DNA from: an uncultured cyanobacterium
GTDB taxonomy: Bacteria > Cyanobacteriota > Cyanobacteriia > PCC-6307 > Cyanobiaceae
DNA: 64,000 bases
Direction: 5' to 3'
Assembly: GCA_903871775.1 (NCBI GenBank)
Contig: CAIQIA010000004.1
Coordinates: 1-64,000, forward strand
In this document: piece by piece, positions 591-19,767 of the stretch
How positions within the stretch are numbered: the stretch's first letter is position 1
Layout: the number at the start of each line of letters is the position of its first letter
Notes under the pieces: generated by a model
Seen by the model: the letters and a program-made list of their open reading frames with translations, nothing else
Told to the model about the DNA's origin: nothing
The model's database searches: none
Translations under genes and position numbers: made by a program

Positions 591-599
591 GCCACCATC

Positions 600-968: not shown

Positions 969-1319
969 GGCTGCACCACCAACACCCGCCCATGGCGGGC
1001 CGCTTCGCTGATCACATGCCAGCGGGAGCCGGCCAGGCGCTCGGCATCGGCGCTGCCACTCACCACCAGATCCACCGGCAGAGGCAGGGATTGCAGCGGC
1101 TGGAAGTAACGCCACCAGCAGATCGAGATCGGAATCGTCGCGGGCGGTGCCCGTGGCGCGGGAGCCGAACAGCACCAGCGCCTGCACTGAGGGATCGGCC
1201 GCGAGCTGGCGCAGGGCTGTTTCCAGTTGATCGCGCAGTGGCCCCTCCACCCCGGGTCCCAGGTCCGGCAGGGCGAAGGGCTGGGGGGTGGTCCAGTCAG
1301 CGAGGGCAGCGGTGGTCAT
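965..1319 (-). pseudogene. Minimal nucleotidyltransferase (MNT), predicted antitoxin, frameshifted
   Basis: The N-terminal half encodes the nucleotidyltransferase motif LFGSRATGTARDDSDLDLLV, with GS and the DxD metal-binding pair. MNT antitoxins neutralise HEPN toxins by AMP transfer. Just after DLDLLV the sensible protein moves to another frame (WWRYFQPLQSLPLPVDLVV), which continues to a TGA overlapping the HEPN start. The interval of 355 bases is not a multiple of three, so one base is extra or two are missing near 1110-1130. In the uncorrected frame the protein runs into the HEPN gene as a fusion. A real inactivation, a programmed shift and a sequencing error are all possible. Confidence 0.7.
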
Positions 1320-1335
1320 GGTCGCAGTTTGGTGC

Positions 1336-1629
1336 TCAGCGCCGCACCAACGGCTGGATCCGTTCCAGCTCTTCCGCCAGCTCAGCACTGGCGACCTCTG
1401 TGTCGTGGGCAGCCTGCGCACGCAACCAATACCCCGGACTGAGCCCCAGCACGCGGCAGAGGCGCAGATCGGTGTCGGCGGTGATCGCTCGTTGTCCGGT
1501 GATGATCTCGCTGATGCGGGAGGCGGGCACGTCAATGGCCTTGGCCAGGCGATACTGGCTGATGCCCAACGGTTCGAGGAACTCCTGCAGGAGCAGTTCA
1601 CCGGGGGTGATGGGAGTGAGACGATCCAT
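1336..1629 (-). CDS. higA: HigA family antitoxin, XRE-type DNA-binding protein
   Basis: A 97-residue protein with an early helix-turn-helix (GISQYRLAKAIDVPASRISEIITGQR, residues about 23-48) and the GLSPGYWLRAQAAHD segment typical of HigA. HigA binds and neutralises the HigB mRNA interferase and represses the higBA promoter. It starts 9 bases after the stop of the upstream toxin gene. The toxin-first order is the characteristic arrangement of higBA modules. The protein is full length for the family. Confidence 0.9.
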   Translation of the reverse strand: MDRLTPITPGELLLQEFLEPLGISQYRLAKAIDVPASRISEIITGQRAITADTDLRLCRVLGLSPGYWLRAQAAHDTEVASAELAEELERIQPLVRR

Positions 1630-1638
1630 AGGGCAGGT

Positions 1639-1917
1639 TCAGTGGTAGTCAACGATCTCAACGTCTTCCGGGCCGCTGTCGCTCCAGCGAAAGCAGAGCC
1701 GGAACTGGTCATTGATGCGGATGCTGTGCTGCCCGGCCCGATCTCCCCGCAGCAGTTCGAGACGATTGCCAGGCGGCACCCGCAGATCCTCCAAGCGTTG
1801 GGCGATCTCCAGCTGCCGCAGCTTGCGGCGCGCCACCCGCTCGAACGCCTGGAAGCGCGGTACATCCCAACCCTGGGCCAGTGTTTCGGTGTCGGCGCAT
1901 CGGAACGACCGGATCAT
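1639..1917 (-). CDS. higB: HigB/RelE family toxin, ribosome-dependent mRNA interferase
   Basis: 92 residues, starting MIRSFRCADTETLAQG, with the conserved core FERVARRKLRQLEIAQRLEDLRVPPGNRLELLRGDRAGQ broken only by family variation, then the strand QFRLCFRWSDSGPEDVEIVDYH that closes the RelE fold. Such toxins cleave mRNA on the ribosome. It lies 41 bases after hsdM and directly before higA on the same strand, so the pair is inserted between hsdM and the hsdS remnant. The reading frame is complete. Confidence 0.9.
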   Translation of the reverse strand: MIRSFRCADTETLAQGWDVPRFQAFERVARRKLRQLEIAQRLEDLRVPPGNRLELLRGDRAGQHSIRINDQFRLCFRWSDSGPEDVEIVDYH

Positions 1918-1958
1918 GACCCCACCATAGTTCCGTCACGCAGAATGGGGTCAGCCGC

Positions 1959-3935
1959 TCACGCCTCCAGGATCCCCGCCACATTCTGGGCAATCCTGGC
2001 CTCCAGTTCCCGCGCCTGGGCGTTCAGCCCCTCCAGCTCCTCCTGCAGCTTCTCCAGCTGCTCCTTGAAGTCTTCATCGCTGAGGTCTTCCCCCGCCGCC
2101 ACGCCCACATAACGGCCAGGGTTGAGGCTCCAGCCCTGGGCTTCGATCACTTCGAGCGTGGCCGCTTTGCACAGCCCGGCGATGTCGCGGTACTGCGGCT
2201 CGGCTCCCTCTTCGCTGCTGAAGTAAGTCTCGATCCAGCGCTGCGCCTCCTCACCTCCCAGGGTCACATCCACCGCCTCACCGCGAAAAAGGCGCACGAT
2301 GTTGGCCAGAAAGCCGATCTGGGCTTCGCTCCAGTCGCGATGGGCCCGGTCGATCTGGCGGTACAGGTGCCGGGCATCCACGAACAGCACCGTGTTCTCT
2401 CGCCCGGTGCCCTTCTTGCCGCGATCGAAGAACCACAACGTGCAGGGCAGGGTCACCGTGTAGAACATGTTCGGCCCCACGGCCACCATCACATCCACCG
2501 CCTTCGCTTCGATCAGCTTCTGGCGGATCGCCTGTTCTGAGCCGCGGGCATCGGAGGCGGAGTTGGCCATCACGAAGCCGGATCGGCCCTTCTCGTTCAG
2601 CGAGGAGTAGAAGAGCTGGATCCAGAGGTAGTTGGCGTTGTCCACGCTCGGCGTACCGAACGGGAAGCGCCGGCCGGGGCCCACCGATCCGCTCAGCCGG
2701 GCCATGTCGACCGCGTTCACATTGAACGGCGGATTGGCCATCACATAGTCGAAGGCACCCACCGCATCGTGGGGATCGAGGTAGTAGCTGTTGCTGTCGC
2801 CGCCGTGGACGATGCGGCCCTCCAGGCCATGGATCGCCAGGTTCATGCGGCACAGGCGGCCGGTTTCGTCGGTCTTCTCCACGCCGCAGATCGCCAGATC
2901 ACCGGCCGGGTTGCCGCGGTGCGCCTTCACGAAGCGGGCGCTCTGCACATACATGCCGCCCGAACCTGAGGCAGGATCCAGTAGCCGCCCGGCAAAGGGC
3001 TCCACGATCTCGGTGATCAACACCACCAGCGAGGTGGGCGTGAAGTATTCGCCGCCCTTCTGCCCCTCGCTGCGGGCGAACTCGCGCAGGAAGTATTCAT
3101 AGATCCGCCCGAAGGCATCGAACTCCAGAGTGGTGGGGATCTCGGAGATGCGTTTGAGCAGCTCAGAGAGCAGCTGCGGCGTGAACAGGTTGTAGCTGCG
3201 CGGCAGCACCCCGGCGAGCTTGCTGTTGTGCTGCTCGATCAGCGCCATGGCCTCGTTCAGCCGGGCGCCGATGTCGGCACCCTCGGGCAGGTCGAGCAGT
3301 TCCTGGTAGCGAGAACCGGGGGGTAGATAGAGCAGGCCCTCGCTCTGGTACGCGTTCGGGTCTTCCTCGCGGCTGCCGCGGCGTTCGCTGCCACCGGCCG
3401 CCTTGAGCTGTTGCCAGCGGGGCATGAAGCGCGCATCGGCGAAGCGCAGGAAGATCAGCCCGAGGATCGGGCCGGAGTACTCCTGGGCCTTGAGACCGGA
3501 GTTGGCACGGAACTGATCGGCAGCGTCCCAGAGGCTCTTCTCCATCTGGGCCTTGCCCAGATCGCGCTCGGGCGGCGCCACCCAGCCCAGAAAGCCGCGG
3601 CTGGGGTCGCCGGGTTCGGGGGGAGGGCTGGCCGGCGCTGCAGCTTCGATGGACTGTCGCCTTTTCGAGCCGTTGCCATTGCGGCTTGTGCGGCCAGCGG
3701 CAGCTCGGGCGGGCGGTTCCACACCGGCAGCTTTCAGACCACCGCCAGGCCCGCGGGCTTTTTCCGCCGCACCCATCGCCACCACAAAGGTTTTGGCTTC
3801 TTCCACCTGGGCGTCGCTGAGCGGCTCTCCCACCTCCTGCTCCAGCGCCACCTTGATCTCACCATTGCTGATTCGGCTGCCGTCCTCAGGGACCAGGGCA
3901 ATCAGGGCGTCGGTGAGATCGTCGCGGCTGGGCAT
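1959..3935 (-). CDS. hsdM: Type I restriction-modification system DNA methyltransferase HsdM
   Basis: HsdM transfers a methyl group from SAM to adenine in the target set by HsdS. Visible here are an N-terminal helical region, the HsdM_N segment (LWDAADQFRANSGLKA, about 135-150), SAM motif I DPASGSGG (320-327) and catalytic motif NPPF (401-404), followed by the C-terminal HsdS-contacting coiled region. The frame is open a further 55 codons upstream, but those residues look like noise. ATG 3935-3933 begins a plausible protein of 658 residues. Residues 1-110 form a small extra domain and an A/P-rich linker not present in every HsdM. No hsdR is seen, so restriction activity is not supported by this window. 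Confidence 0.92.
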   Translation of the reverse strand: MPSRDDLTDALIALVPEDGSRISNGEIKVALEQEVGEPLSDAQVEEAKTFVVAMGAAEKARGPGGGLKAAGVEPPARAAAGRTSRNGNGSKRRQSIEAAAPASPPPEPGDPSRGFLGWVAPPERDLGKAQMEKSLWDAADQFRANSGLKAQEYSGPILGLIFLRFADARFMPRWQQLKAAGGSERRGSREEDPNAYQSEGLLYLPPGSRYQELLDLPEGADIGARLNEAMALIEQHNSKLAGVLPRSYNLFTPQLLSELLKRISEIPTTLEFDAFGRIYEYFLREFARSEGQKGGEYFTPTSLVVLITEIVEPFAGRLLDPASGSGGMYVQSARFVKAHRGNPAGDLAICGVEKTDETGRLCRMNLAIHGLEGRIVHGGDSNSYYLDPHDAVGAFDYVMANPPFNVNAVDMARLSGSVGPGRRFPFGTPSVDNANYLWIQLFYSSLNEKGRSGFVMANSASDARGSEQAIRQKLIEAKAVDVMVAVGPNMFYTVTLPCTLWFFDRGKKGTGRENTVLFVDARHLYRQIDRAHRDWSEAQIGFLANIVRLFRGEAVDVTLGGEEAQRWIETYFSSEEGAEPQYRDIAGLCKAATLEVIEAQGWSLNPGRYVGVAAGEDLSDEDFKEQLEKLQEELEGLNAQARELEARIAQNVAGILEA

Positions 3936-4147
3936 CGGGGCGGGATAGGGGCGGGATCTGGGAGTCGGGCTTGCACCCCGCTCTCCAGCAGCAGTCTGCG
4001 TCCTTCTACAGCCGGAAAGACGTACACGCCGTGAGGTCTCACCCCCCATGACGGCAGATCTATGCGTCGATGCATAGAACCGCGATGCCCCTCCCCTCAA
4101 GTCTTGGCGCTATGACAGAGAGGAGCTGGGATGTGAAAGCAGCGACA

Positions 4148-5835: not shown

Positions 5836-6420
5836 TCAGGGTCTGGACTTGGACTTAGAGAAGAGCTTCTCAGGTTTGATCGCAATCAGAAAGCCGCTGA
5901 CGGCCAGCAGAAACACCGAAAAACAGAACGCCACAAGACCACCAGAATCCTTGACGGGAATCTGGATCATCGCCTTGAAAGCCGAGACGATGAGGGCAAC
6001 CACAAGCACCTTCACCAGCTTTTCCTTGAGCTGATCCAGGTTTTTGATATCCAGCAAGCCACCACTTTCAGGATCACTGGATTGGTCGCGGTACACATCG
6101 ATTTCAGAGATCAGCAACTCGTAGATGCCATAGCCGAAGATCAGCAGAGCAATCCCGATCAGATAGAAGTCAACACCCGAAACGACGCCTGCCAAAGACG
6201 ACTGATCAACGTGGTGATTCTCGCCCGAGAAGAGGTAGAGATGGATGGAGTCGAGAATGTCACGGGTACCGATGAAGAACGTCAGCAGCGTGCTGGCCAG
6301 GCTCATCACCACGGGAATGAACGCGATCAGCCGAAACCGCCACAGAACGAGTTCAAGCACAGATTCCAAACGCTTGGAAAGCCTTGATCTGCGAGGGGGC
6401 AGAGAGTCTGGATTCGCCAT
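5836..6420 (-). CDS. YqhA family (UPF0114) membrane protein
   Basis: 194 residues with about four membrane segments: LIAFIPVVMSLASTLLTFFI, DFYLIGIALLIFGYGIYEL, VLVVALIVSAFKAMIQI and VAFCFSVFLLAVSGFLIAI. The N-terminal ESVLELVLWRFRLIAFIPV and the FGYGIYELLISEID stretch are hallmarks of the UPF0114/YqhA family of unknown function. It ends 8 bases before the kinase start on the same strand. The composition is less GC-rich than its neighbours. Confidence 0.85.
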   Translation of the reverse strand: MANPDSLPPRRSRLSKRLESVLELVLWRFRLIAFIPVVMSLASTLLTFFIGTRDILDSIHLYLFSGENHHVDQSSLAGVVSGVDFYLIGIALLIFGYGIYELLISEIDVYRDQSSDPESGGLLDIKNLDQLKEKLVKVLVVALIVSAFKAMIQIPVKDSGGLVAFCFSVFLLAVSGFLIAIKPEKLFSKSKSRP

Positions 6421-6513: not shown

Positions 6514-7503
6514 TCAGGCCCCCGGCCGGCAGCGGCCCTGCTGACGGCGGAGGTTGAGGGCGATCATGGCGGGATCGAGTTGCTGCTCTGCCGCCCCCAG
6601 CTCAAACGCTGCCCGGGGCATGCCATACACCACACAGGTGGCCTCGCTCTGGACCATCGTGTGCCACCCGGCCTGCCGCAGTTTCAGCAACCCTGAGGCA
6701 CCATCTCGCCCCATCCCCGTGAGCACAACCGCCTGCCCCGGCGTCACCCCAGGCCGCAGCAAGCTCAAAAACAGCTGGTTGACCGACGGCCGGTACGGTT
6801 CATCGCGGGGTTCGACGACGTAACCCAGGCGGCCATCGGCCTTAAGCACCAAATGGTTGTTGCTGCAGGCAAGCTGAACGACGCCCCGGCGCACAGGGTC
6901 ACCCTCCTGCACCGCCTCCACCGGCAGAGGGATCTGGCTGTTGAGCCATTGGACCAGGCCTGGAGCGAATTGGGCATCGATGTGCTGGGCCACCAGCACC
7001 GCGGCGGCCAGGTCAAGGGGGAGGGGAGCCAGGCAGCTGACCAGGGCCGCGGGACCTCCGGTCGACGAGCCGATCGCAATCAACGGCGGCAGGGTTCTCG
7101 GCTGCTTCTCCGGCGTGTTCAGACGTTCGATCTGCCTGATCCGACGCAACAGGGGTTGCCCTGCAATCGCGGCTGGTTCCAGCAACGACGGTGTCTGCAC
7201 CGCATCGAGAGCTCCATGACCGAGGGCCTCGTAGATGAGCCCGTTGCGTGATTCGACGCTGCTGGTCACCAGCAGGATCGGACAGGGGCTGGCGGCCATG
7301 ATCCGCCGGGTCGCCTCAACGCCGCCGACTCCCGGCATCAACAGGTCCATCAGGATCAGGTCTGGCTGGTCCCGCCGCGCCATCTGCACCGCTTCGGCGC
7401 CATCACGGGCCTCCCAGGCGATCTCATGCCGCGGTTCCAACGCCAGCACCCTTCGCAACGCATGCAGCGCCAGGGTCGTGTCATTGACCAGGGCGATGCG
7501 CAT
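6514..7503 (-). CDS. cheB: Chemotaxis-type response regulator methylesterase CheB (WspF-like)
   Basis: CheB removes methyl groups from receptor glutamates and so resets adaptation. Residues 1-120 are a receiver domain with phospho-acceptor D53 in LILMDLLMPG. Residues about 140-325 are the methylesterase domain, with the serine of GSSTGGP (146-147), H174 in AQHI and D267 in TGMGRDGA forming the catalytic triad. The start lies 3 bases after the stop of the CheA-type kinase, so it is the last gene of the leftward arm. In Wsp systems the equivalent (WspF) is a negative regulator whose loss locks signalling on. Confidence 0.95.
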   Translation of the reverse strand: MRIALVNDTTLALHALRRVLALEPRHEIAWEARDGAEAVQMARRDQPDLILMDLLMPGVGGVEATRRIMAASPCPILLVTSSVESRNGLIYEALGHGALDAVQTPSLLEPAAIAGQPLLRRIRQIERLNTPEKQPRTLPPLIAIGSSTGGPAALVSCLAPLPLDLAAAVLVAQHIDAQFAPGLVQWLNSQIPLPVEAVQEGDPVRRGVVQLACSNNHLVLKADGRLGYVVEPRDEPYRPSVNQLFLSLLRPGVTPGQAVVLTGMGRDGASGLLKLRQAGWHTMVQSEATCVVYGMPRAAFELGAAEQQLDPAMIALNLRRQQGRCRPGA

Positions 7504-7506
7504 CGC

Positions 7507-9759
7507 TCACACGCAAGCTGGACCAATCAGATCATGAACGGCCTCCAGCAGCACCCGCCCGTCAAAGCCGGTCTTGCCAAGGTACCCATCAGCACCGGCC
7601 CGCAGACCTTCCAGCCGATCAGCCTCGCTATCGCGGCTCGAGAGAATGAGCACCGGCAGCGATCCAAGAGGTTCAGGCAGTTCCCGCAACCGTCGCACCA
7701 GCGCAAAGCCATCCAGCTTCGGCATCTCGACATCGCTGAGCACCAGGCTCACCCGCCGTCGCTGCAGCAGGGCCAGGGCCTCTTCGCCATCGGCGGCCTT
7801 CTCGACCCCGTAGCCCTGCCCCTCCAGGGTGCGACCCACCGATTCGCGCACCATGCGGCTGTCGTCAACCACCAGCACCCGCTGCGGTTCGGAAGCCACC
7901 ATCGCGGGCTCGGTGGTCGCTGGCGCAGACACGGGAGGCAGAGGCGCCACATCACCGATCTCGAGCCGCTCCTGCACCACCTGCAGCAGCACGCCGGCAT
8001 CGAGCACCAGAATCGGCGCACCGTCCCCCATCAACGCCGCCGAGGCAATGCAGGGGACCGTGCCCAATCGTGGATCGAGGGGGCGCACCACCAGATCCTG
8101 TTCGCCGAGAAAACGCTCAACCACCAGGCCGTAAGCCTTGCCCTGGTCACTGAGAACCATCACCGGCAACGGGTCGCTCAAGGTGGCCGGACAGGGCCGC
8201 CCGAGCAGCGGCTGCGCCTGGATCAGACCGATGGCACGGCCATCGAGCAGCAGGGTGGAGCGACCTTCGTGGCGATCAATGGCCGTCAACGGCGCCGCCA
8301 CAATCTGATCCAGCCGTGCCAGGGGCAGGGCGTAGGGTTCGCCGCCGATCTGCACCAGCAGCGTGCGCACCACCGAGAGGGTGAGCGGCAGCTGCAGGTG
8401 CAGGCTCAGCCCCGTGCCGGCCACCGACTGAAGCCGCAGGGAGCCGCCCACCTCGCGGGCCATGGTGTCCACAACATCGAGGCCAACGCCGCGACCTGAG
8501 AGTTCGCTCACCTGCACGGCGGTGGAGAAGCCCGGCCGCAGCAGCAGCGCCATCAGATCGTTCTCGCTGGGGTCCCGTTCAGCGCCATCGCCGACGGCGG
8601 TCAGCAGTCCCCGTTCCTGGGCCCTCTGGCGCACAGCCTCGAGGTTCACACCGGCTCCATCGTCCCGGATGGTGATACTCAGCATGCCGCCGCGGTGCAG
8701 CGCCTCGATCCGCAGCGTCCCCTGCTCGGGTTTGCCAGCCCTGCGGCGCTCTTCGGGGGTCTCCAGGCCGTGGTCGATGGCGTTGCGCACGGCATGGGTC
8801 ACCGGCGCCTCCAGGCGGCGCAGGATGTCGCGGTCGACAAGGGTGTTGCGACCCACGATCTCGAGGCGCACCCGCTTGCCGAGACTGGCTGCCAGGTCGC
8901 GCACCAGACGGGGCAGGGCGCTGAGGCCCTCGTGAAAGGGCCGCATGTTGGCATTGAGCACCTCGCCGTAGAGGCGGTGGGCAATCGTGTTCGAGCGACG
9001 GGTGAAGGCCTCCAGTTCTTCGATCTGTTGTTGCAGCAGCAGCTGGCACTGGCGCTCCTTTTCGCGGATCAGATCCAGAGGGGGGTCGTTGGCGCTGATC
9101 AGTTCGGTGACCTCCCGCTGGCGGCTGCGCAGCTGCTGCAGGCCATCGGCGAACGGTTGCAGCCAGCGGGCCGCCACCATCGACTCCCCCGCCAGGGCGG
9201 CGATGCGGTTGAGCTGCAGGGCGTCAAGCTTCACGGTGCGCTCGGCTGGAGGCACGCCGGCGGAGGCTCCCGGGGCAGCTCCGGAGGATGGCGGTCCTGC
9301 GATGGATCCCGGCAAGCCGCCGGCGCGAGGCGACGGGTTCTGCAGGCCCAGGGTGAGCGCCTGCAGTTCGCCCTCGAGAGCTGCCAAGGCCTCGGCCTCA
9401 CCCTGCAACCGCTCGGGAAAGGTCTCGCAAGGGCCGCTGTGGAACTGCTCCAGCTGATCGAAGGCTCGAAACAGCAGCGCCACGGCCTCGCCAGGGAGGG
9501 CCGCCCCATCGGCGGCCGTCGCCAGGGCCGCCAGCACCAGATCTTCGATGGCATGGGCCAGCCGTTCCAGAATCGTCAACCCCACCATCCGCGCCGCCCC
9601 TTTCACGGTGTGGGCCGCCCGCATCAGGCTGTCGCGGCTGCCGGAGCTGGCCGAATCAGCCTCCAAGTCTAGCAGGGCACCATTCAGCAGGCTGAGCTGG
9701 TCCCCCAGCTCCTCCACGAACAGGGCAAGGTTGCTGTTCTGCTCATCGGGGCCGCTCAT
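7507..9759 (-). CDS. cheA: Hybrid CheA-type histidine kinase with C-terminal receiver (WspE-like)
   Basis: 750 residues in the order Hpt (phospho-histidine H50 in AAHTVKGAARM), linker, dimerisation segment, HATPase (N box HAVRNAIDH near 322-330, then DDGAG), CheW-like domain (about 475-600) and a receiver domain (about 628-746, acceptor D676 in LSDVEMP). It takes receptor input through CheW and phosphorylates its own receiver and CheB. The CheA-REC fusion is the WspE layout. The start overlaps the stop of the CheW-type gene by four bases (ATGA). No separate CheY gene is present here. Confidence 0.95.
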   Translation of the reverse strand: MSGPDEQNSNLALFVEELGDQLSLLNGALLDLEADSASSGSRDSLMRAAHTVKGAARMVGLTILERLAHAIEDLVLAALATAADGAALPGEAVALLFRAFDQLEQFHSGPCETFPERLQGEAEALAALEGELQALTLGLQNPSPRAGGLPGSIAGPPSSGAAPGASAGVPPAERTVKLDALQLNRIAALAGESMVAARWLQPFADGLQQLRSRQREVTELISANDPPLDLIREKERQCQLLLQQQIEELEAFTRRSNTIAHRLYGEVLNANMRPFHEGLSALPRLVRDLAASLGKRVRLEIVGRNTLVDRDILRRLEAPVTHAVRNAIDHGLETPEERRRAGKPEQGTLRIEALHRGGMLSITIRDDGAGVNLEAVRQRAQERGLLTAVGDGAERDPSENDLMALLLRPGFSTAVQVSELSGRGVGLDVVDTMAREVGGSLRLQSVAGTGLSLHLQLPLTLSVVRTLLVQIGGEPYALPLARLDQIVAAPLTAIDRHEGRSTLLLDGRAIGLIQAQPLLGRPCPATLSDPLPVMVLSDQGKAYGLVVERFLGEQDLVVRPLDPRLGTVPCIASAALMGDGAPILVLDAGVLLQVVQERLEIGDVAPLPPVSAPATTEPAMVASEPQRVLVVDDSRMVRESVGRTLEGQGYGVEKAADGEEALALLQRRRVSLVLSDVEMPKLDGFALVRRLRELPEPLGSLPVLILSSRDSEADRLEGLRAGADGYLGKTGFDGRVLLEAVHDLIGPACV

Positions 9760-10445
9760 GATGCTTCCAGCTGGATGCGCAGGGTGCTCAGCAACCGCGG
9801 ACCGTCGATCAGGGCCACCTGACGCCCCTTCCAGCGGAACAGGCCATCGGTGAGGGCCTGGGCGGGGTTAAGCACCACCGGCGGCGGTTGCAGTTCCTCC
9901 GCCCTGCAGAGATGGATGCCGAGCACCTCATCGATCGCGATCACCCATTGCTCGTCGCCCGGAGCGGTCACCGCCATGCGGGCGTTGCCGTCACCCATCG
10001 GGCTTGTGGGGTCGCGCTCCGGCAGACCCAGCAAGCGGCGAAGACAGGCCGCCAGCAGAATCTCGCCGCGGATGTTGACCAGGCCGAGAAAGCAGCCGTT
10101 GCTGCGGCCCGGCACGCTGTGAATGCCAAACGGTGGGGTGACCTCCTGGAGCAGCTTCAGGGGCAGCGCCAGCAGCTCCTGGTCCACCCGAAACACCATC
10201 AGCGCCAGGGCCTGCTCACCACCGACCACCCGCTCGTCGCCCTCAGCAACGCCCGAGCGGTCGTTGCCGCCGCCGTCGGCCAGTACCGCTGTCCAGCTGG
10301 ACAGGTAGTCGGCAGGGGGCTGCCGCTCGAGCAGGCTGCGACCAGCCCGGGAATAGACGCTGCAATTGCGGCAATGAACAACAGTGGGCAGTTCAGGGCA
10401 GCTACCGTCGCCACTGACTCCGATGTGGTTCCAGCAGTCGTCCAT
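9756..10445 (-). CDS. CheW-type adaptor with cysteine-rich N-terminus (WspD-like)
   Basis: 229 residues. The C-terminal two thirds is a CheW domain (ALMVFRVDQELLALPLKLLQEV, NIRGEILLAACL). The N-terminus, DDCWNHIGVSGDGSCPEL then VHCRNCSVYS, is the cysteine-containing segment found in WspD-type adaptors rather than in classical CheW; its role is unknown, although four cysteines could bind a metal. It begins 8 bases after the receptor gene stops and overlaps the kinase start. It should couple the receptor to the CheA-type kinase. Confidence 0.88.
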   Translation of the reverse strand: MDDCWNHIGVSGDGSCPELPTVVHCRNCSVYSRAGRSLLERQPPADYLSSWTAVLADGGGNDRSGVAEGDERVVGGEQALALMVFRVDQELLALPLKLLQEVTPPFGIHSVPGRSNGCFLGLVNIRGEILLAACLRRLLGLPERDPTSPMGDGNARMAVTAPGDEQWVIAIDEVLGIHLCRAEELQPPPVVLNPAQALTDGLFRWKGRQVALIDGPRLLSTLRIQLEAS

Positions 10446-10453
10446 CAGGCCCC

Positions 10454-12130
10454 TCAGCCGGTGACCTGGAACTGGCCCAGCTCGCGCCGCAGCACAAGGG
10501 CCGAATCCTCGAGCTGCACCAGGCTCGTGTTGGTGTCAGCGATCGCCTCGGAGGTCTGCTGCGCCGACTCGCTGAGCTGCAGCATCGCCTCGCTGATCTG
10601 CTGGGCACCTTCCGACTGCTGCTGCACAGCCTCACCGACCTGCTGGAACTTCGGCCCCAGACCCTGCACCTGGGTGATCACCGCCTCCACTTGATCACTC
10701 ACCCGCACGACATCTTCCACAGAGCTGGCGACCGCTGCACTGAAGCGGTTCATTTCGAGCACGCCGCTGGTTACCGCCGCCTGCATGTCGCGCACCATCT
10801 GTTCGATCTCGAGGGTGGCCACGGCGGTCTGGTCGGCGAGTCGGCGGATCTCGCGGGCCACCACCGCGAAGCCGGCGCCATACTCACCGGCCTTTTCGGC
10901 TTCGATCGCGGCATTGAGCGAGAGAAGGTTGGTCTGATCAGCCACCTTGGTGATCGTGGAGACGACGCTGCCGATGCTGCTGGCCCGATCATTCATCGTG
11001 TCGAGTTTGGCCGAAATCTCGGCAGTCGATGCTGAAAGGCCCCGCATCATCGCCTCCATCCGGTTGAGGTCGTCCTGACTGCGGGACGCAGCCGTGGCGG
11101 TTTCGCCTGCCTGGCGGTCCACCTCGCCCATGGTCTGCACCAGCACGCGCGAAGTGGCGGCGATCTGCTGACTGGTGGCACTCACCTCATTGGTGCTGGC
11201 GACCTGTTCGGAGACCGTGGCCTCGAGCTGGCGTCCAGCGGCGGCGATCTGGGTGGCGGCGGTGTTGATCTGCACGCCCGACCGCTGGATCTCGCGCACC
11301 AACCGGGTGAGGTTGTCGCCCATGCTGTGGAAGGCGTTCTGCAGCTTGCCCAGTTCGTCGGCCTCTTCGGTTGGCGGCAGGTTCTCGCGCAGATCCCCCT
11401 CGGCGATGGCCTCGGCCACCTCGACGACTGTGGCGATGCGGGCACCCAGGGGCCGGGCGATCGTGCGGGTGAAGTAACCGGCCGCCGTGATGCCGATCGC
11501 CGGAGCCAGAACGATCATCACCAGTGACCAGAACTGGGCCTGGTTGATGCTGGCGGTCGCGTCTTGCTTGGCCTTCTCACCCGCCTGTTGGTTGTAGCGG
11601 ATGACCTGAAGAAGGGCGTCGGTGGCGTCCTGATAAGTCTGATTCTGTTGCTTGAGTTCGGCGCGCAGTCGTGCAGCAGCCTGGGGAGTGACGGCTCCAC
11701 CATTGGTGCCCATGACCGCGTTGATCTGGCGCATCAGCTCACGATGGCTGTCTTGCCACACCTGCCAGCGTTCACGCACGCGGCTGTAGAGGGCTTTTTC
11801 CTCAGCATCAGAATCGGTGGCTTCGTATTGATGCCGTCCCTCTTCGATCTGCTTCCAGGCGGCATCAATCCGCTGGAGTTCCACCTGACGGGCAGCAGGA
11901 GGCTCTTCCGGCTCGATCAGCAGCCGCTGGGCCGACTGGATCTGGGTCTGGCCTTCATTGATTTTCCAGAGTCCATCAACACTCGGCAGTCGATTGTCTG
12001 CAAGCTCCTCGATCCGTCCGCCGAGGCTGCGGGCGGTCGCCATCGCGAGGACGGCGATCAGCAGCGCCAACCCCCCCATGGCCAGGAAGGCATAGCGGAG
12101 GCGAGCCTCCATCGACTGGTGCTGGGCCAT
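10454..12130 (-). CDS. Methyl-accepting chemotaxis-type receptor (WspA-like)
   Basis: 558 residues with an N-terminal membrane helix ([17 protein letters not shown], about 14-30), a helical periplasmic sensor region to about 205, a second membrane helix ([19 protein letters not shown]), HAMP and a long cytoplasmic coiled coil. The signalling tip is [19 protein letters not shown]. The periplasmic part is all-helical, like the four-helix-bundle receptors of Wsp systems, and has no PAS or Cache motif. It is the first gene of the leftward arm, transcribed from the 12131-12473 intergenic region. The ligand or stimulus is unknown; Wsp receptors in Pseudomonas respond to surface contact. Confidence 0.93.
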
Positions 12131-12473
12131 GAGTGTGGACTGCGGGCGAGGGGGTGCTGGGGGGGGCGGGGGTGGTCACTGGACCGAAATCAGTGCACTG
12201 GAATAGGCCCAAACTGATCTGTGGGTGGGCGCAGAATGGAAACTGATTTATATAAAGACGCTCGATAGGGTTGTGGATTTTTATCACGTGCGGCATTATT
12301 CTCATGCTACAGAAAAATTAAGGCTTTACAAGCCCCCTGCCAGGCCAAACCCCAACGTGATGTCCGAGTTTTGTTACGTATGCGACCGTCCTGAGCGTTT
12401 CAGGGGTCTAAGGCTACGTCTGGAGTCGCTCGACACCTTGATCGGGACACGGCCCTGATCCACCCCGGCTCTG
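12131..12473. promoter_or_regulatory. Divergent promoter region between the two chemosensory arms
   Basis: This 343-base gap separates the receptor gene (leftward) from the CheW gene (rightward) and contains no credible gene. The middle, about 12240-12330, is markedly AT-rich for this genome and includes ATTTATATAAAGAC at about 12245-12258, a plausible promoter core. A short inverted repeat CCTGA-GCGT-TTCAGG lies at about 12391-12405. Both arms are most likely transcribed from here, but no specific start site can be assigned. Confidence 0.5.
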
Positions 12474-13037
12474 ATGCAACAGCTCCCGCCCCCTCCGCAG
12501 CCTTCGCCTTCACTGCCGCAGCCCACCCAGAGCGGGGGCATGGGCACCGGTGGAGACGGCGCCTGCCTGTTGCTGCTGCTTGGGGTTGGGGATCAACTCT
12601 TCGCCCTTGAGACCGCCAACGTGGTGGAGGTGATCCCACGGGTCCTGCTTCGCCCTGTGAGCGGGTCTCCCCCCCACCGGCCCGGGGTGTTCAACTTCCG
12701 CGGTCGCGTGGTTCCGGTTGTGGATGTGTCGCAGCTGATCGCCGGCCACCCCTGCGCCGAACATCTCAGCAGCCGGATCATCATGGTGCGTCATAGGTCT
12801 GGTGGCAGCGGCGAGCGAGACGGCCTGGTTGGTCTGCTCGCCGAACGCGTCACCGACACGGTGCTCAAATCTCTCAACAGCTTCCAGCCCGCCGATGGGG
12901 CGGCGCAGCTGGCACCGTTCCTGGGCGGTGTGGCCCTGGATGAGCGGGGGCTGATCCAGCTGCTGCATGCCGATACCCTGGCCCAGGTGGGCCTGGCCCA
13001 AACGTCAGAGGAGCCGGAGACGGATGACCGCGGCTGA
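12474..13037 (+). CDS. cheW: CheW-type adaptor protein (WspB-like)
   Basis: 187 residues: a proline- and glutamine-rich N-terminus of about 28 residues, then a CheW domain with LLLGVGDQLFALETANVVEVIP, GVFNFRGRVVPVVDVSQLI and IIMVRH. It should bridge receptor and kinase. The extra N-terminal stretch may be a linker or mean the true start is the internal ATG near residue 23. It is the first gene of the rightward arm and overlaps the following cheR by 14 bases. Its place before cheR reproduces the wspB-wspC order. Confidence 0.9.
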   Translation: MQQLPPPPQPSPSLPQPTQSGGMGTGGDGACLLLLLGVGDQLFALETANVVEVIPRVLLRPVSGSPPHRPGVFNFRGRVVPVVDVSQLIAGHPCAEHLSSRIIMVRHRSGGSGERDGLVGLLAERVTDTVLKSLNSFQPADGAAQLAPFLGGVALDERGLIQLLHADTLAQVGLAQTSEEPETDDRG

Positions 13038-14100
13038 GCTGGATCCCTTGCGCAGCTGGCTGCAGAGCACCACCGGTCTGGAGGCCGATTTGCTGGGCCG
13101 CCAGAGCCTGGAGCGAGCCGTCAGGAAGCGACTGGCGGACACCGACGGTCTGACGTCGGCTGACTATCAACGCCTGCTGATGCAGGATCCCGCCGAACAG
13201 CAGATGCTCATCGAAGCGCTGGTGGTGGGCGAGAGCTGGTTCCTGCGGGAGCCGCGTTCGTTCTCCCAGCTGGTGGACATGGCCCGCCGGCAGTCTCAGC
13301 GACCGCTGCGGCTGCTCAGCTGCGGCTGCGCCGGTGGCGAAGAACCCTATTCGCTGGTGATGGCCCTGCTGGAGGCCGGGCTGTCGCCGCAACAGCTGGA
13401 GGTTGAGGCCATCGACATCAGTGCAGTGGCGCTGGCCCGGGCGGCTGAGGGCTCCTACGGCAGCCATGCCCTGCGGGGAATGGAGCTCCGGCGGCTGCAG
13501 CGGTTCTTCGATCCCGACGGGCAGCGCTGGCGGCTGCGGCCCGAGTTCCGGGGCATGGTGCGCTTCCATCACGGCTCGCTGCAGCAGCGGCTGCAGGAGC
13601 TGCCGGGGGGCTGGCAGGCGGTCCTGTGCCGCAATGTGATGCTTTACATGAACGACGAGGCACGACAGGATCTGCTGAGGGTGATCGCCGGTCGACTCGC
13701 CCCGGATGGGTTGCTGCTGGTGGCAGCTGCTGAGTCGGCCCTGGTGCCATCGGCGATCTATCGCCGTCTTGACGGCGGACACCGGGCAGGCTTCATCCGT
13801 CGCAATGGCCCTCCAGAGCCTGCTCCCGCCACCATCAGCACGCCGCGGCAGCCCCGTCGCTCCGTGCCCAGACTGGCGCCACCCCTGGAGCCCGACACCC
13901 ACCTGATGGCTGCCCGTCAACTGAAACAGCTGGGCCAGCTGGAGGAGGCCCTGGTGGCGTTGCGCCGCTGCCTCTACCTCGATCCCCGCCATCGGGAGGC
14001 CCTGATCCTTCGCGCTGAACTGTCCAGCGCGCTGGGGCGCCACGAGGCAGCCGAGCAGATGCGGCGACGCCTGGAACGGATCAGCCGTCAGAACCCATGA
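13024..14100 (+). CDS. cheR: CheR-type MCP glutamate methyltransferase with TPR tail (WspC-like)
   Basis: CheR methylates receptor glutamates using SAM. ATG 13024 gives 358 residues. The catalytic domain has LLSCGCAGGEEPYSLVMALLE (SAM loop and the GEEPYS motif, about 98-118) and later LCRNVMLYM, where the usual motif is CRNVxIYF. The C-terminal 70 residues (QLKQLGQLEEALVALRRCLYLDPRHREAL) form TPR-like helices, the WspC layout. It overlaps the CheW gene at its start and the ion-channel gene by four bases at its end, so all three are probably co-translated. Confidence 0.94.
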   Translation: MTAAELDPLRSWLQSTTGLEADLLGRQSLERAVRKRLADTDGLTSADYQRLLMQDPAEQQMLIEALVVGESWFLREPRSFSQLVDMARRQSQRPLRLLSCGCAGGEEPYSLVMALLEAGLSPQQLEVEAIDISAVALARAAEGSYGSHALRGMELRRLQRFFDPDGQRWRLRPEFRGMVRFHHGSLQQRLQELPGGWQAVLCRNVMLYMNDEARQDLLRVIAGRLAPDGLLLVAAAESALVPSAIYRRLDGGHRAGFIRRNGPPEPAPATISTPRQPRRSVPRLAPPLEPDTHLMAARQLKQLGQLEEALVALRRCLYLDPRHREALILRAELSSALGRHEAAEQMRRRLERISRQNP

Positions 14101-15137
14101 GCCAACGGCGGTGGATGCTTCTGGGGCTGCTGGGGCTGCTGCTGGCCTTGCTGCTGGGTGGCACCCTCAGGCCGGCCCGGGGAGCCGGCGACGCCAGCGG
14201 GGGAGTGGCCACCTGCCGCATGGGCGTCTTCATCGAAGATCTGCGCGATTTCAGATTCGCCGAGAAGTCTCTGTTCGCCTCTCTGAGGGTCTGGAGCGTG
14301 TGCCCTTCGGACGGGCTCACACCATTGGCTGATCTTGAGATACGCAATGCCAACGAGATCAACATCGGCGAAGTGAAGACCCATTTAGAAACCAACCACT
14401 CGCGCTCATTCCCAGGCAAGTCGAAGTTGTACTGGTCTGAGGTCGGCATCACCGGGACATTCTATTACCCGTGGTCAGCCCAGAACTTCCCCTTTGATCG
14501 TCATCATCTCCGTTTTGAAATTGTTCCCCGTGGCGTCAGTCGAGCTGGCTTTGTGGTGACCCCTGACTATCAAAGCTCTGGCTACAACGCAAGGATCAGC
14601 TCGGGGGACTGGATCGCCTCCAACTTCATGCTTAACGAGGAGAGCCTCGAGCAGGGAAGCAGTTTTGGAAATCCATCGATGACCAGCGTTCACGGCGAAG
14701 GGGTCAGCACGATCACCGCTTCGATTGAGCTGCGCCGTGCACGCATCACCAGTTTTCTGAAGATGAGCGCTGGTGTTTATGCCGCTGTTGTAATCTCGGC
14801 GATGGCCTTTTTCATGGATCCCCGCGAACCAGATCTGGTAAGCGGTCGCACGGGACTGTGTGTGGGCTGCTTGTTCGCTGCCATTGTCAATATGCAACAG
14901 GCCGAGTCAACGCTTGGCATTTCGGAAGATGTCACCCTGACAGACCAGATCCATATCATTGCGATCCTTTACATCCTGATCTCGACAGTGCTTGCCATCG
15001 TCAGCTATCTGCGTTGCGAGCGAGACCAGGCCGACCGTGCCCGACATCTCGACCGGCACTATTACCTGCCGATCTTCGGCAGCACTTATCTGGTCACGAA
15101 TGGCGTGATCATCGCCTACGCCGTGCTGGTGGGGTGA
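14097..15137 (+). CDS. Prokaryotic pentameric ligand-gated ion channel homologue
   Basis: 346 residues with a signal peptide (LLGLLGLLLALLLGGT, A/G-rich end near 30), an extracellular beta-sandwich region of about 180 residues, and four C-terminal membrane helices at about 218-240, 250-272, 281-304 and 323-345. The motif NFPFDRHHLRFEI (130-142) matches the FPFD signature of the Cys-loop/pLGIC loop, without the flanking cysteines, as in bacterial channels such as GLIC. M2 (TGLCVGCLFAAIVNMQQAES) is in the expected place to line the pore. The gene overlaps cheR by ATGA, tying it to the chemosensory cluster. The ligand and ion selectivity cannot be read from the sequence. Confidence 0.82.
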   Translation: MSQRRWMLLGLLGLLLALLLGGTLRPARGAGDASGGVATCRMGVFIEDLRDFRFAEKSLFASLRVWSVCPSDGLTPLADLEIRNANEINIGEVKTHLETNHSRSFPGKSKLYWSEVGITGTFYYPWSAQNFPFDRHHLRFEIVPRGVSRAGFVVTPDYQSSGYNARISSGDWIASNFMLNEESLEQGSSFGNPSMTSVHGEGVSTITASIELRRARITSFLKMSAGVYAAVVISAMAFFMDPREPDLVSGRTGLCVGCLFAAIVNMQQAESTLGISEDVTLTDQIHIIAILYILISTVLAIVSYLRCERDQADRARHLDRHYYLPIFGSTYLVTNGVIIAYAVLVG

Positions 15138-15233
15138 CCCACTCCACGGGCCTGGGCAGCAGATCGGCAGCGCCGCCGATGTTGCCGCCTGCGCCGATCA
15201 GACCCATCGTTGGGGGTCGCATGCAACCGGCGG

Positions 15234-16904
15234 ATGTCCCCCTGGCCCGTGGCCGCTGTCCCCCTGGTGCTGGCCGTGCTCACGGCGCCCCCCCTCGGTC
15301 GGCACCTGGATGCCCTGATCAGCGACCGGCCGCAGCCGGCCTGGGACCGCTGGGTCGGTCCGCTCGAAGCGGCTCTGATGCGCTGGGTCGGTGATGCGGG
15401 CCGCCCGGCCGACTCGGCCATGGGCTACCTGCTGCCGTTGCTCGTGAGCAACGGCCTGTTCGGCCTCGTGGCGCTGGTGCTGCTGCTGCTGCAGCCCCCC
15501 TGGCTCAACCCCCTCGGCTTTGCAGGCCTGCGGCCTGACCTGGCCCTGCACACCACGGTCTCGTTTCTGACCAACACCGACCAGCAGCACCTGGTGCCCG
15601 AGACCAGCCTGGGCAACCTCGCCCAGCTGGGGGTGATCCAGTTCCTGATGTTCGTCTCGGCGGCAACGGGTCTCGCCGTGGGTTTCGCGGTGATCCGCGG
15701 CTTCTGCGGGCGGCCCCTGGGCAATCTGCACCGCGATCTGGTGCGGTCGCTGACGCGGCTGCTGATTCCGGGTGCGCTGCTGGTGGCCCTGGCCCTGCTG
15801 CTCTGCGGTGTGCCGATGACCCTGGCCCCGCCGCAGGTGATCACCACCCTGGAGGGGGCCCGCCAGACCCTGCCCGTGGGCCCCATCGCCCTGTTCGAGG
15901 CGATCAAGCAGCTGGGGGAGAACGGCGGTGGCTTCGTGGCGGCCAATGGGGCCCACCCCTACGAAAACCCGACGCTGCTCAGCAACCTGATCAGCACCTG
16001 GGCGATGCTGGCGATCCCCGTGGCCACCATCGACGCCTTCGGCCGCTGTCTCGGCAACCGCCGCCAGAGCAATCTGCTGCTGGTGCTGGTGCTGGCCCTG
16101 TTGCTGCTGGGGGGCGCCGTGGCGATGGTCGCCGAAGGCGCTGGCAATCCCGCCCTGAGCACCTGGCTCGATGGACCGAATCTGGAGGGCAAGGAGCTGC
16201 GCTTCGGTGCCCCGCTCACCGGCCTGTGGGCCGCCGTCACCACCGGCACGATGACCGGTGCCGTCAACGGCTCCCTGGACGCCGCGATGCCGGCGACGCT
16301 GGTCGTGGCGCTGTTCAACCTGTTCCTGCAGGTGGTGGTCGGTGGCCAGGGCACCGGTGTGGCCTACCTGCTGGTGTTCGTGCTGCTGGCGGTGTTTCTC
16401 ACGGGCCTGATGGTGGGCCGCACCCCCGAACTGCTGGGCCGCAAGGTCGAGAAGCCCCAGGTGGTGTGGGCCAGCCTGGTGCTGCTGATCCATCCGCTGT
16501 TCGTGCTGATCCCGGCGGCCCTCACCCTGGCCGGCGGCACCGCCCTGGCGGCCACCGGCAACCCGGGCCCCCATGGCATCAGCGAGGTGGTCTACGAGTA
16601 CGCCTCGGCGGCCGCCAACAACGGCAGCGGCCTGGCGGGTCTCGGCAACGGGTCCCCCTGGTGGAACCTGAGCACCACCGTCAGCCTGCTGGGGGGGCGC
16701 TACCTGCCGATCGCAGCCCTGCTGGCCCTGGCCGACGGCATGCGCCGAAAGCCGGCCCTGGCCCCGGGCCCCGGCACCCTGCGCACCGACACCACCCTGT
16801 TCACGCTGGTCACAGCCATGGTGCTGCTGATCCTCGGGGCCCTCACCTTCTTTCCGGTGCTGGCCCTCGGGCCCATCGCCGAGGGCCTGGCGACCGTCTC
16901 CTGA
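15234..16904 (+). CDS. kdpA: Potassium-transporting ATPase potassium-binding subunit KdpA
   Basis: KdpA is the channel-like subunit of the KdpFABC high-affinity potassium pump. The 556-residue product from ATG 15234 is very hydrophobic, with about ten membrane segments and the repeated selectivity-filter regions: TTVSFLTNTDQQHLVPE, QLGENGGGFVAANGAHPYENP, TTGTMTGAVNGS and YASAAANNGSGLAGL. A TTG start at 15210 would add eight residues. The gene begins 96 bases after the ion-channel gene and is followed by kdpB after 9 bases. Expression of kdp is usually induced by potassium limitation. Confidence 0.95.
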   Translation: MSPWPVAAVPLVLAVLTAPPLGRHLDALISDRPQPAWDRWVGPLEAALMRWVGDAGRPADSAMGYLLPLLVSNGLFGLVALVLLLLQPPWLNPLGFAGLRPDLALHTTVSFLTNTDQQHLVPETSLGNLAQLGVIQFLMFVSAATGLAVGFAVIRGFCGRPLGNLHRDLVRSLTRLLIPGALLVALALLLCGVPMTLAPPQVITTLEGARQTLPVGPIALFEAIKQLGENGGGFVAANGAHPYENPTLLSNLISTWAMLAIPVATIDAFGRCLGNRRQSNLLLVLVLALLLLGGAVAMVAEGAGNPALSTWLDGPNLEGKELRFGAPLTGLWAAVTTGTMTGAVNGSLDAAMPATLVVALFNLFLQVVVGGQGTGVAYLLVFVLLAVFLTGLMVGRTPELLGRKVEKPQVVWASLVLLIHPLFVLIPAALTLAGGTALAATGNPGPHGISEVVYEYASAAANNGSGLAGLGNGSPWWNLSTTVSLLGGRYLPIAALLALADGMRRKPALAPGPGTLRTDTTLFTLVTAMVLLILGALTFFPVLALGPIAEGLATVS

Positions 16905-16913
16905 AGCATCCCG

Positions 16914-19010
16914 ATGACCTCTTTTCCAAGGGTCCCGTTTCTGCGCATGCCCAGGGGGCCGCGGCACGAGCGACGCCACGTCGAACGCCCCCGCCATCAG
17001 GGGCTGTGGCGCCGGGCCCTGATCGATGCCGTGCGCAAGCTCGATCCGCGGCTGACGGTGACCAACCCGGTGATGTTCGTCACCTGGTGCGGCACCGCCC
17101 TCTGCCTGCTGCTGACCCTCAGCCCCGACCTGTTCGACGGCCCCGACGCCGGCCAGAGCCGCGGCTTCAACGGCCTCATCAGCCTCACCCTGCTGGCCAC
17201 CCTGCTGTTCGCGAACGTGGCCGAGGCCCTGGCCGAGGGGCGGGGCAAGGCCCAGGCCGATGCCCTGCGCCGCACCCAGGCCCGCACAGAAGCCCGGCGC
17301 CTGGCCGACGACGGCAGCATCGAACGGGTCGATTCGTCGGCCCTGCGCCGCGGCGACCGGGTGCAGGTGGAGGCCGGCGATGTGATCCCTGCCGATGGCG
17401 AGGTGATCGACGGGGTGGCCTCGGTGGATGAATCGGCCATCACGGGCGAATCGGCACCGGTGCTCAAAGAGGCGGGCTCGGATGTGGCCGGGTCGGTGAC
17501 CGGTGGCACGCGCATCCTCTCGGACCAGCTCACCCTGCGCATCACCGCCGATCCGGGGAAGGGCTTCATCGACCGGATGATCGCCCTCGTCGAAGGCGCC
17601 GAACGCACGAAAACCCCCAACGAGATCGCCCTGACGGTGCTGCTGGCGGTGCTGACCCAGGTGTTTCTGATCGCGGTCGCCACCCTGCGGCCCGTCGCCG
17701 GCTTCCTGGGGCAGGCGCCGTCGGTCGTGACCCTGATCGCCCTGCTCGTTGCCCTCATCCCCACCACGATCGGTGGGTTGCTGAGTGCCATCGGCATCGC
17801 CGGCATGGACCGGGTGGCCCAGTTCAATGTGATCGCCACCTCGGGGAGGGCGGTGGAGGCCTGCGGCGACGTCAACGTGCTGGTGCTCGACAAGACGGGC
17901 ACCATCACCCTCGGCAACCGCCTCGCCGAGGAGTTCCTGCCGGTGGGGGACCACAGCGTGATGGATCTGGCGATGGTGGCCCTGGCCGCCAGCTGCTTCG
18001 ACCAGACCCCGGAGGGCCGTTCGATCGTGCGGCTGGCCGAACGGCTCGGGGCGACGCTGGCCTTCGATCCATCCACCGCCCGCGGCATCGACTTCTCGGC
18101 GCGGACGCGGATGAGCGGCAGTGACACCCCCGAGGGGGTCGAGTACCGCAAGGGTGCCGTGGAGGCGATCAAGGGCTTCGTGCGCTCCCGCGGTGGTCAG
18201 GTGCCCGGGGCCCTCGACGACACCTTCGAGCAGGTGTCGAGCCTCGGCGGAACGCCACTGGCCGTCTGCCAGGGGAACGCGGTGCTGGGTGTCATCCACC
18301 TGAAGGACATCATCAAGCCGGGGATCCGTGAACGGTTCGAGCAGCTGCGCCGCATGGGCATTCGCACGGTGATGCTGACCGGCGACAACCCCATCACCGC
18401 CGGCGTGATCGCCCGCGAGGCCGGGGTTGATGACTTCATCGCCGAGGCCACACCCGAAGACAAGATCAGCGTGATTCAGCGCGAACAGGCCCTCGGCAAG
18501 CTGGTGGCCATGACGGGGGACGGCTCCAACGATGCGCCGGCCCTGGCCCAGGCCAACGTGGGGGTGGCCATGAATTCGGGCACCCAGGCCGCCAAGGAGG
18601 CCGCCAACATGGTCGACCTCGACAGCGATCCCACCAAACTCATCGACATCGTCACCATCGGCAAGCAGCTGCTCATCACCCGCGGTGCCCTCACGACCTT
18701 CTCGATCGCCAACGATGTCGCCAAGTACTTCGCGATCCTGCCCGCCCTGTTCGTCGAGGCGGGCCTCGGCCCGCTGAACGTGATGCAGCTGGCCTCGCCC
18801 CGGTCGGCGGTGCTGTCGGCGATGGTGTTCAACGCGCTGATCATCCCGGCGCTGGTGCCCCTGGCGCTGCGCGGGGTGCAGTTCCGGCCGCTGTCGGCGG
18901 AACAGCTGCTGCAGCGCAACCTGCTCATCTATGGCGTCGGTGGCCTCGTAGCCCCCTTTGTGGGCATCAAGCTCATCGACGTGGTCGTCAACACCCTGCA
19001 CCTGGTCTGA
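16914..19010 (+). CDS. kdpB: Potassium-transporting ATPase ATP-binding subunit KdpB
   Basis: KdpB is the P-type ATPase subunit that drives KdpA. In 698 residues one sees the actuator motif TGES (177-180), membrane segment [15 protein letters not shown] (280-294), phosphorylation site DKTGT with D326, nucleotide-domain residues, and hinge [10 protein letters not shown] then [15 protein letters not shown]. The first 45 residues are arginine- and histidine-rich and longer than usual. The start may lie slightly downstream. It is 9 bases from kdpA and 8 bases from the small kdpF-like gene. Confidence 0.97.
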
Positions 19011-19018
19011 GGTTCGCC

Positions 19019-19213
19019 ATGCCCATGCGTCTCCCCCCCCTGCTGCGCTTCTGGCTGCCCCTCCTGGCGGTGGTCACCATCCTCGGCCTGGTGCATGCCC
19101 TCGGCGGTGATCACCCCAGTGCCCAATCGATCGCCATGGCCCTGCTGCTCACGGGCACCATCGCCCTGGCGGGCTACCTGTTCGCCGTGATCGCCCAACC
19201 GGAGAGGTTCTGA
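19019..19213 (+). CDS. kdpF: KdpF-like small membrane subunit of the Kdp potassium pump
   Basis: 64 residues with two predicted membrane segments, FWLPLLAVVTILGLVHAL and AMALLLTGTIALAGYLFAVIA, ending in AVIAQPERF, the KdpF C-terminal signature. KdpF stabilises the KdpABC complex. The gene lies between kdpB and kdpC, sharing one base with the kdpC start. This is an unusual place compared with the enterobacterial kdpF-A-B-C order. The protein is also longer than the ~29-residue E. coli KdpF, which has a single helix; only the second half matches. Confidence 0.8.
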   Translation: MPMRLPPLLRFWLPLLAVVTILGLVHALGGDHPSAQSIAMALLLTGTIALAGYLFAVIAQPERF

Positions 19214-19767
19214 TGTCGTTCACCACCCTGGTGCTGCGGGGCCTGCGGCTCACCCTGGCCCTGTGGCTGCTCACCGTCGTGGTGATCACCCTGCCCCTGC
19301 TGGGCCTGGCCCGGGTGGTGGCCCCCGACAGTGCCACCGGCAGCCTTGTGCGCCGCAACGGCGTCGTGGTGGGGTCGCGGTTGCTGGGCCAGCCCTTCGC
19401 AGGGGATCGCTACCTGCAGGGGCGTCCTGCCGGCAACCCCAACCTGGGCCCGGCCAACCCGAAGCTGGCCATCCGGATCGCCGGGGCCGCCGACACCTGG
19501 CGGCGGGTCGGCATCACCAAGCCGGCGCCCGATCTGTTGTTCGTCTCAGGCTCGGGCGTCGATCCCCACATCAGCCTGGCGGCGGCGCGGCAGCAGCTGC
19601 CGCGGCTGGCGGCGACACGGCAACTGCCCCCCGAACGGCTGGAACGGCTGCTGCGGCAACACATCGACGGCCCGGGGCGCCTGCGGGCGATCGAGCCCCT
19701 GGTCAACGTGCTGGGTTTCAACCTGGCCCTCGATGATCTGAGCGACGGTGCGCCGCAGAGACCGTGA
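19213..19767 (+). CDS. kdpC: Potassium-transporting ATPase subunit KdpC
   Basis: KdpC is the single-span accessory subunit that helps ATP binding by KdpB. The 184 residues begin with one membrane helix (TLALWLLTVVVITLPLLGLARVV), then the family motifs SRLLGQPFAGDRYLQGRPA, VSGSGVDPHISLAAA and the C-terminal VNVLGFNLALD. It overlaps the kdpF-like gene by one base and the kdpD-like gene by four. Confidence 0.95.
   Translation: MSFTTLVLRGLRLTLALWLLTVVVITLPLLGLARVVAPDSATGSLVRRNGVVVGSRLLGQPFAGDRYLQGRPAGNPNLGPANPKLAIRIAGAADTWRRVGITKPAPDLLFVSGSGVDPHISLAAARQQLPRLAATRQLPPERLERLLRQHIDGPGRLRAIEPLVNVLGFNLALDDLSDGAPQRP

Follow-up and report, generated by a model that had tools for sequence, protein, structure and literature searches.

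The genome of an uncultured picocyanobacterium analysed here carries a Wsp-type chemosensory gene cluster in which, judged from sequence comparison, the gene of a predicted pentameric ligand-gated ion channel (pLGIC or LGIC) appears to occupy the place held in related clusters by a receiver (REC) output gene. The cluster lies in a window of 64 kb, the whole stretch of DNA that was analysed, from the draft genome G000 (2.57 Mb, 27 contigs, 96% complete). Our main reading, to which we assign a probability of roughly 0.5, is that the Wsp-type core works with the pLGIC as a dedicated partner, probably its effector, instead of with a REC-enzyme such as WspR. Its parts are graded separately: the pLGIC is in all likelihood a functional part of the Wsp-type system, and its position on the output side rather than as a co-sensor is an even call.

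Six chemosensory open reading frames (ORFs) between positions 6514 and 14100, at the positions of the earlier note and named by Pfam, form two divergent arms. On the minus strand, the leftward arm encodes a WspA-type MCP receptor with 4HB sensor, HAMP and MCPsignal domains (10454..12130), a cysteine-rich CheW of WspD type recognised by Pfam and by its Cys positions (CysCheW, 9756..10445), a WspE-type CheA-REC with one Hpt, HATPase, CheW and REC domains (7507..9759), whose gene overlaps that of CysCheW by 4 nt, and a WspF-type CheB with REC and methylesterase domains (6514..7503), which also matched NCBIfam PRK12555 over the cut-off. On the plus strand follow a CheW in the WspB position (12474..13037) and a WspC-type CheR-TPR (12967..14100) with Pfam matches to CheR and TPR, for which an in-frame ATG at 13024 seems a likelier start than 12967. 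The intergenic region separating the arms (12131..12473) is the presumed site of both promoters; no promoter-like site came up there in a consensus scan. Hence the complete Wsp gene set, with MCP, two CheWs (one of them Cys-rich), CheA-REC, CheR-TPR and CheB, is present in one locus. The gene content that the earlier note gave for the two arms agrees with ORF positions and Pfam, and its view of a WspA-F set split into two divergent units agrees with Pfam content, arm directions and the CheA tree. It had, however, ended the rightward arm at CheR: both genes named there are confirmed, but the arm continues. An ORF that had been missed (14097..15137, plus strand) starts within the end of cheR by an ATGA overlap of 4 nt with its stop and belongs to the rightward unit, which reads CheW-CheR-TPR-pLGIC.

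The structural model identifies the putative product of this ORF as a pLGIC, a relative of the animal neurotransmitter-gated channels. Pfam named nothing in it, and its family Neur_chan_LBD gave no match for the window protein; five of six che-linked relatives scanned match this family below the cut-off, which is a tool threshold and not a biological trait. NCBIfam LGIC_1 matched the window protein weakly and below its cut-off (E=1.2e-5), and a single-sequence search of the PDB returned GLIC at chance level only (best E=0.39). A profile built from 21 sequences, searched against the PDB, had a GLIC-GlyR chimera as its best match (E=3.8e-10) and GLIC near 1e-7. The AlphaFold model, of moderate confidence (mean pLDDT 72.4, pTM 0.57), shows strands followed by four long helices, and Foldseek matched it to pLGICs throughout the PDB with E values down to 1.3e-17. 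Superposition with VIA-align gave Z 21.7 to GluCl (rmsd 4.0 over 284 residues, 13% identity), and the predicted fold matches GluCl, GABA-A and GLIC at Z of about 21. The model thus contains the predicted pLGIC fold, a beta-sandwich ligand-binding domain with four transmembrane (TM) helices; the M3-M4 cytoplasmic loop of the window channel is short.

All 21 channel sequences have in common the motif PFDRH, a Cys pair (C40 and C69 in window numbering) and an Arg at the mouth of M2, with G, A, P, D or S before it in each of them. As the M2 site is said not to predict ion selectivity in prokaryotes (PMC4795631), we make no claim on selectivity from this motif. The channel resembles GLIC and other prokaryotic pLGICs, described as Pro-loop receptors in that survey (PMC4795631), in its fold, the Pro-loop (here PFDRH), the four TM helices and the basic residue at the M2 mouth; it differs from them by an identity of 13-15% in structural alignments, the invariant pair C40/C69 and its chemosensory linkage. 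The same genome encodes a second pLGIC (G000:C26:151093-151947, equivalent to L166:9030-10031) of a paralogous subfamily, which has neither the Cys pair nor che neighbours, and no che genes were found in the 17-19 kb around each of the channel paralogs G000:C26, G047:C75, G549 and G485:C234.

The chemosensory core itself is assigned by sequence to the Wsp type (ACF class), with the defining effector missing. In a CheA tree of 29 rows, the window CheA is placed among WspE proteins of REC-GGDEF (WspR) loci, on a long branch with a support of 99; the same group also spans clusters with REC-cyclase, REC-SpoIIE, REC-kinase or LGIC genes. Ten of the 11 other CheAs from the searched cyanobacterial genomes, whose Pil/Tax identity is presumed, fall outside the WspE group, and the one inside it, that of L147, has its own Cys-CheW. 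The window CheA therefore falls with the WspE class and away from the other cyanobacterial CheA classes, in line with the assignment made earlier, and a Pil/Tax grouping was not found in this tree with its presumed Pil/Tax comparison proteins. The signalling tip of the MCP is nearly identical to that of MCPs from WspR-bearing loci, e.g. L128 and L133, and the N-terminal Cys residues of CysCheW are invariant in all five aligned proteins (window and four relatives). The phosphorylation sites read as intact: H50 of CheA and the acceptor Asp of its REC domain, both of which are conserved, and the acceptor Asp of CheB, in which the catalytic motifs are also present. The cluster contains no PatA/CheY-type regulators; CheA and CheB are its sole REC genes. 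Two peculiarities of relatives may be recorded here: in the filamentous LGIC loci L068, L069, L070, L071, L073, L086 and L087 a second MCP has the tip LNAALEAE and the first MCP LNAAIEAE, and at L171:15788-16547 cheB is seemingly broken into two ORFs, about 2 kb away from cheA.

Linkage of channel and core recurs across cyanobacteria. Few genomes of the family have Cys-CheW (5 of 251), and an LGIC gene lies 3' of CheR in three of the four other family carriers, the contig of the fourth stopping before that place. In a scan of named genomes with a Cys-CheW alignment, 80 loci were kept of 500 relatives, and in 14 of them, besides the window, the cluster includes one LGIC gene or two: seven are picocyanobacterial and seven come from Nostoc, Microcoleus, Pseudanabaena and others, with L068/L069 and L071/L087 as near-duplicates. 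Two more LGIC-bearing clusters in genomes G481 and G485 bring the number of distinct clusters to 17, window included, where G379 and G431, judged by length to be the same contigs as L073 and L071, were counted once. The contig of L066, labelled as a Bifidobacterium breve MAG, has a picocyanobacterial Wsp-type cluster; this bin is probably mislabelled or contaminated.

Three arrangements were observed among the 14 loci, the LGIC gene always being on the strand of its neighbour. It lies behind CheR with the 4-nt ATGA overlap in all eight picocyanobacterial loci that hold that end (seven directly, L064 from its in-frame ATG at 3388), 5' of CheW at a gap of 14-273 nt, or, in Pseudanabaena, 3' of CheB at a gap of 3-6 nt. 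The linkage is present in every locus of the LGIC clade whose relevant end is included. Strong LGIC matches (E<1e-60) occurred in 5 of the 28 cyanobacterial genomes that gave a full-length match to Cys-CheW (counted at E<1e-50) versus none of 358 without (Fisher 1.4e-6); relaxing the cut-off to E<=0.001 gave LGIC-like matches in 20 of 386 genomes, mostly weaker ones and from other subfamilies. Over the 14 loci, the distances of LGIC are correlated with those of CheA (Mantel r 0.81-0.83).

The outer genes are not common to distant lineages, except for UPF0114 (window and L173) and a LysR-like ORF (L071 and L171). Directly after the pLGIC, positions 15210-20882 of the window hold KdpA (Pfam) and ORFs read as kdpB, kdpC and a short KdpD-like protein of 372 aa; Kdp was rejected as part of the system, as no other scanned locus has it 3' of the LGIC. 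The UPF0114 membrane-protein gene just downstream of cheB and on the same strand (window 5836-6420) recurs once more, at L173:1931-2455, which is too little to include it. Two tandem genes of the CrcB fluoride-channel family lie 73 bp upstream of the pLGIC at L171:3793-4660 and L173:13435-14225, within one genus (Pfam run on the L171 copies only), and an EF-hand/arginase fusion gene is found 37-158 bp downstream of cheB in the picocyanobacterial loci L061 (13982-15610, the copy run against Pfam), L059 and L064. Near the start of the window (66-4100), the ORFs read as a small toxin-antitoxin-like pair flanked by type I restriction-modification-like genes.

The usual neighbour 3' of CheB in related clusters is a separate REC gene. 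Where the core is flanked on each side by 2 kb or more, such a gene is present in none of the 14 LGIC loci versus 33 of the 37 non-LGIC loci. The four exceptions (L084, L089, L099 and L122) have no detected cheB and may therefore be broken or split clusters. When flanks are disregarded, 47 of all 66 non-LGIC loci have the REC gene, and the other 19 are mostly cut contigs; L125 contains a GGDEF gene, within which the REC profile found no REC. Seven of the 47 were typed by Pfam, giving REC-SpoIIE in L065 and L110, REC-class III cyclase in L076 and L079, REC with kinase in L103 and L121, and REC-GGDEF in L128. No credible GGDEF motif was found in the cyanobacterial loci, the motif match in L103 being a 90-aa frame on the opposite strand.

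On a careful tree of CheA plus CysCheW (40 of 55 rows, 15 near-duplicates dropped and 4 rows unlabelled), LGIC versus REC is one change with a support of 95/97, a result recovered in 92% of 200 bootstrap trees. A quick tree of all 55 rows likewise unites the two LGIC groups; a tree of CysCheW only (81 rows) did not resolve their joining. As all LGIC/REC counts rest on one swap in the tree, they represent one evolutionary event and not many. The pLGIC thus appears to have taken the place of the REC output gene of related clusters once, followed by long retention, rather than in many independent cases.

The earlier note had reported that the diguanylate cyclase WspR is absent and had left the output of the CheA receiver open. 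No REC-GGDEF protein is encoded in the 64-kb window, and searches of the whole 96%-complete assembly returned no match for GGDEF, the check proposed at that time, and none for EAL while the search controls gave matches. The absence of WspR is confirmed, yet a specific candidate for the output, the pLGIC, can now be named. Since the genome has no GGDEF and no EAL, a c-di-GMP output of the window system seems very unlikely. Relatives examined within the family range from one to many GGDEF/EAL domains, against none in G000, and the four other picocyanobacterial carriers of the family gave 9-28 GGDEF and 5-16 EAL matches. G000 contains one MCP gene, that of the cluster, three matches to the PilB/PilT-type ATPase family, and 14 REC domains: those of CheA and CheB and 12 others, which from their open frames read as mostly OmpR-type regulators, one NarL-type and one stand-alone REC. 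The latter (G000:C16:221765-222187) was rejected as the missing CheY, as it does not track the cluster: an ortholog that is 86% identical (E 2.4e-76) occurs in G032, a 76%-complete genome in which no MCP was found, and nothing comparable was matched in the four other carriers (best E 2.5e-20). A greedy longest-ORF annotation around this gene was antisense noise and was set aside.

With the channel as effector, the receptor array would sense an envelope, surface or ionic stimulus and be tuned by CheR-TPR and CheB. Phosphate would pass to the REC domains of CheA and CheB as the sole clustered phospho-acceptors, the state of the array would alter opening or assembly of the channel, and the output would be an ion flux or a change of membrane potential rather than c-di-GMP. 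The fullest form of this proposal, in which the array drives a channel of neurotransmitter-receptor type as terminal effector, so converting a phosphorelay into a fast electrical output, and in which this is the native role of the whole pLGIC subfamily, is tentative and somewhat doubtful. Gene proximity is no proof that channel and array interact, and no sequence feature shows a route from CheA or CheB to the channel; moreover, many GGDEF proteins are kept by the other picocyanobacterial carriers, and the channel's own ligand-binding domain suits an input role no less well. As the acceptor sites of CheA and CheB read as intact, phosphotransfer to a response regulator in trans is possible.

In the reading that competes most directly, the pLGIC is a co-sensor: a periplasmic ligand would cause an ion flux, the MCP array would read potential or ions, and CheA would signal to a regulator encoded elsewhere. 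The ligand-binding domain of pLGICs, the 12 other response regulators of the genome with their one stand-alone REC, and the prediction of bacterial LGICs as chemotaxis receptors (Tasneem et al. 2004, PMC549065) all speak for it. However, an input gene would have to be gained and the clustered REC gene lost at one node, two changes where a single replacement would suffice, and this reading asks for a second, unlinked output, for which the only stand-alone REC does not track the cluster; we consider it possible but rather doubtful. That channel and core are merely co-expressed for the same stress and act independently would follow from operon coupling by itself, and ion-handling genes do adjoin some clusters (KdpA in the window, two CrcB in L171). 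Against this stand the linkage kept across three arrangements in every LGIC-clade locus with the relevant end and the ATGA overlap in eight of eight picocyanobacterial loci, which make independent action unlikely. An ordinary Wsp system whose WspR is encoded elsewhere or was missed by the assembly might be expected from a draft of 27 contigs and from the 9-28 GGDEF domains of the other carriers; it is highly improbable given that GGDEF and EAL are lacking in G000 under working controls and that no REC gene lies beside any LGIC-bearing cluster with flanks. A chance neighbourhood of pLGIC and cheR, for which one could cite that the outer genes on both sides do not stay with the cluster from one distant lineage to another, is refuted by recurrence in 17 distinct clusters of different lineages and arrangements, and we give it practically no weight. 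Our preferred reading stays with the channel as dedicated partner of the Wsp-type core.

The cluster resembles the Wsp system of the ACF class in its WspA-F set with Cys-rich CheW, CheA-REC and CheR-TPR, its WspE-group CheA and its MCP tip, and differs from it by the lack of WspR in the window and of GGDEF/EAL in the genome, the divergent arms and the pLGIC in the operon. A Wsp-like cassette without WspR, with a class III adenylate cyclase in its place, was described in 2016 for Phormidesmis priestleyi BC1401 (PMC4971617). Both cyanobacteria thus have a WspA-F core without WspR; unlike the window, the BC1401 cassette (Ga0079976_1038, our L082) includes a REC output gene and its locus gave no LGIC match, and the BC1401 genome is described as having GGDEF proteins (PMC4971617). 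Varied output domains of response regulators were reported for ACF systems with CheR-TPR in general (PMC3447774). Tasneem et al. likewise proposed a chemosensing role for bacterial LGICs, on the evidence of fused or operonic PBP, Cache and MCP-N domains; the passages of that paper drawn on here do not mention a neighbourhood of CheA, CheW, CheR and CheB (PMC549065). A WspR-less Wsp cluster in a cyanobacterium and varied ACF outputs are accordingly known already, and no report of a pLGIC in a che/wsp cluster was found among the open-licence PMC papers searched.

GLIC and other prokaryotic pLGICs serve widely as structural models of the neurotransmitter receptors of animals. Nevertheless, no biological role was known for any pLGIC of unicellular organisms according to the statement of a 2016 survey (PMC4795631). 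By sharing a conserved operon with a full chemosensory pathway, a subset of pLGICs gains a pathway, a class of stimulus and partners for knock-out. The window represents a natural Wsp-type system in a genome without any GGDEF or EAL, and the Wsp core resembles a chassis whose output slot has been refitted with a cyclase, a SpoIIE-type phosphatase, a kinase, a diguanylate cyclase and, apparently, an ion channel. The pairing kept in distant cyanobacteria could supply bacterial pLGICs with their first testable job.
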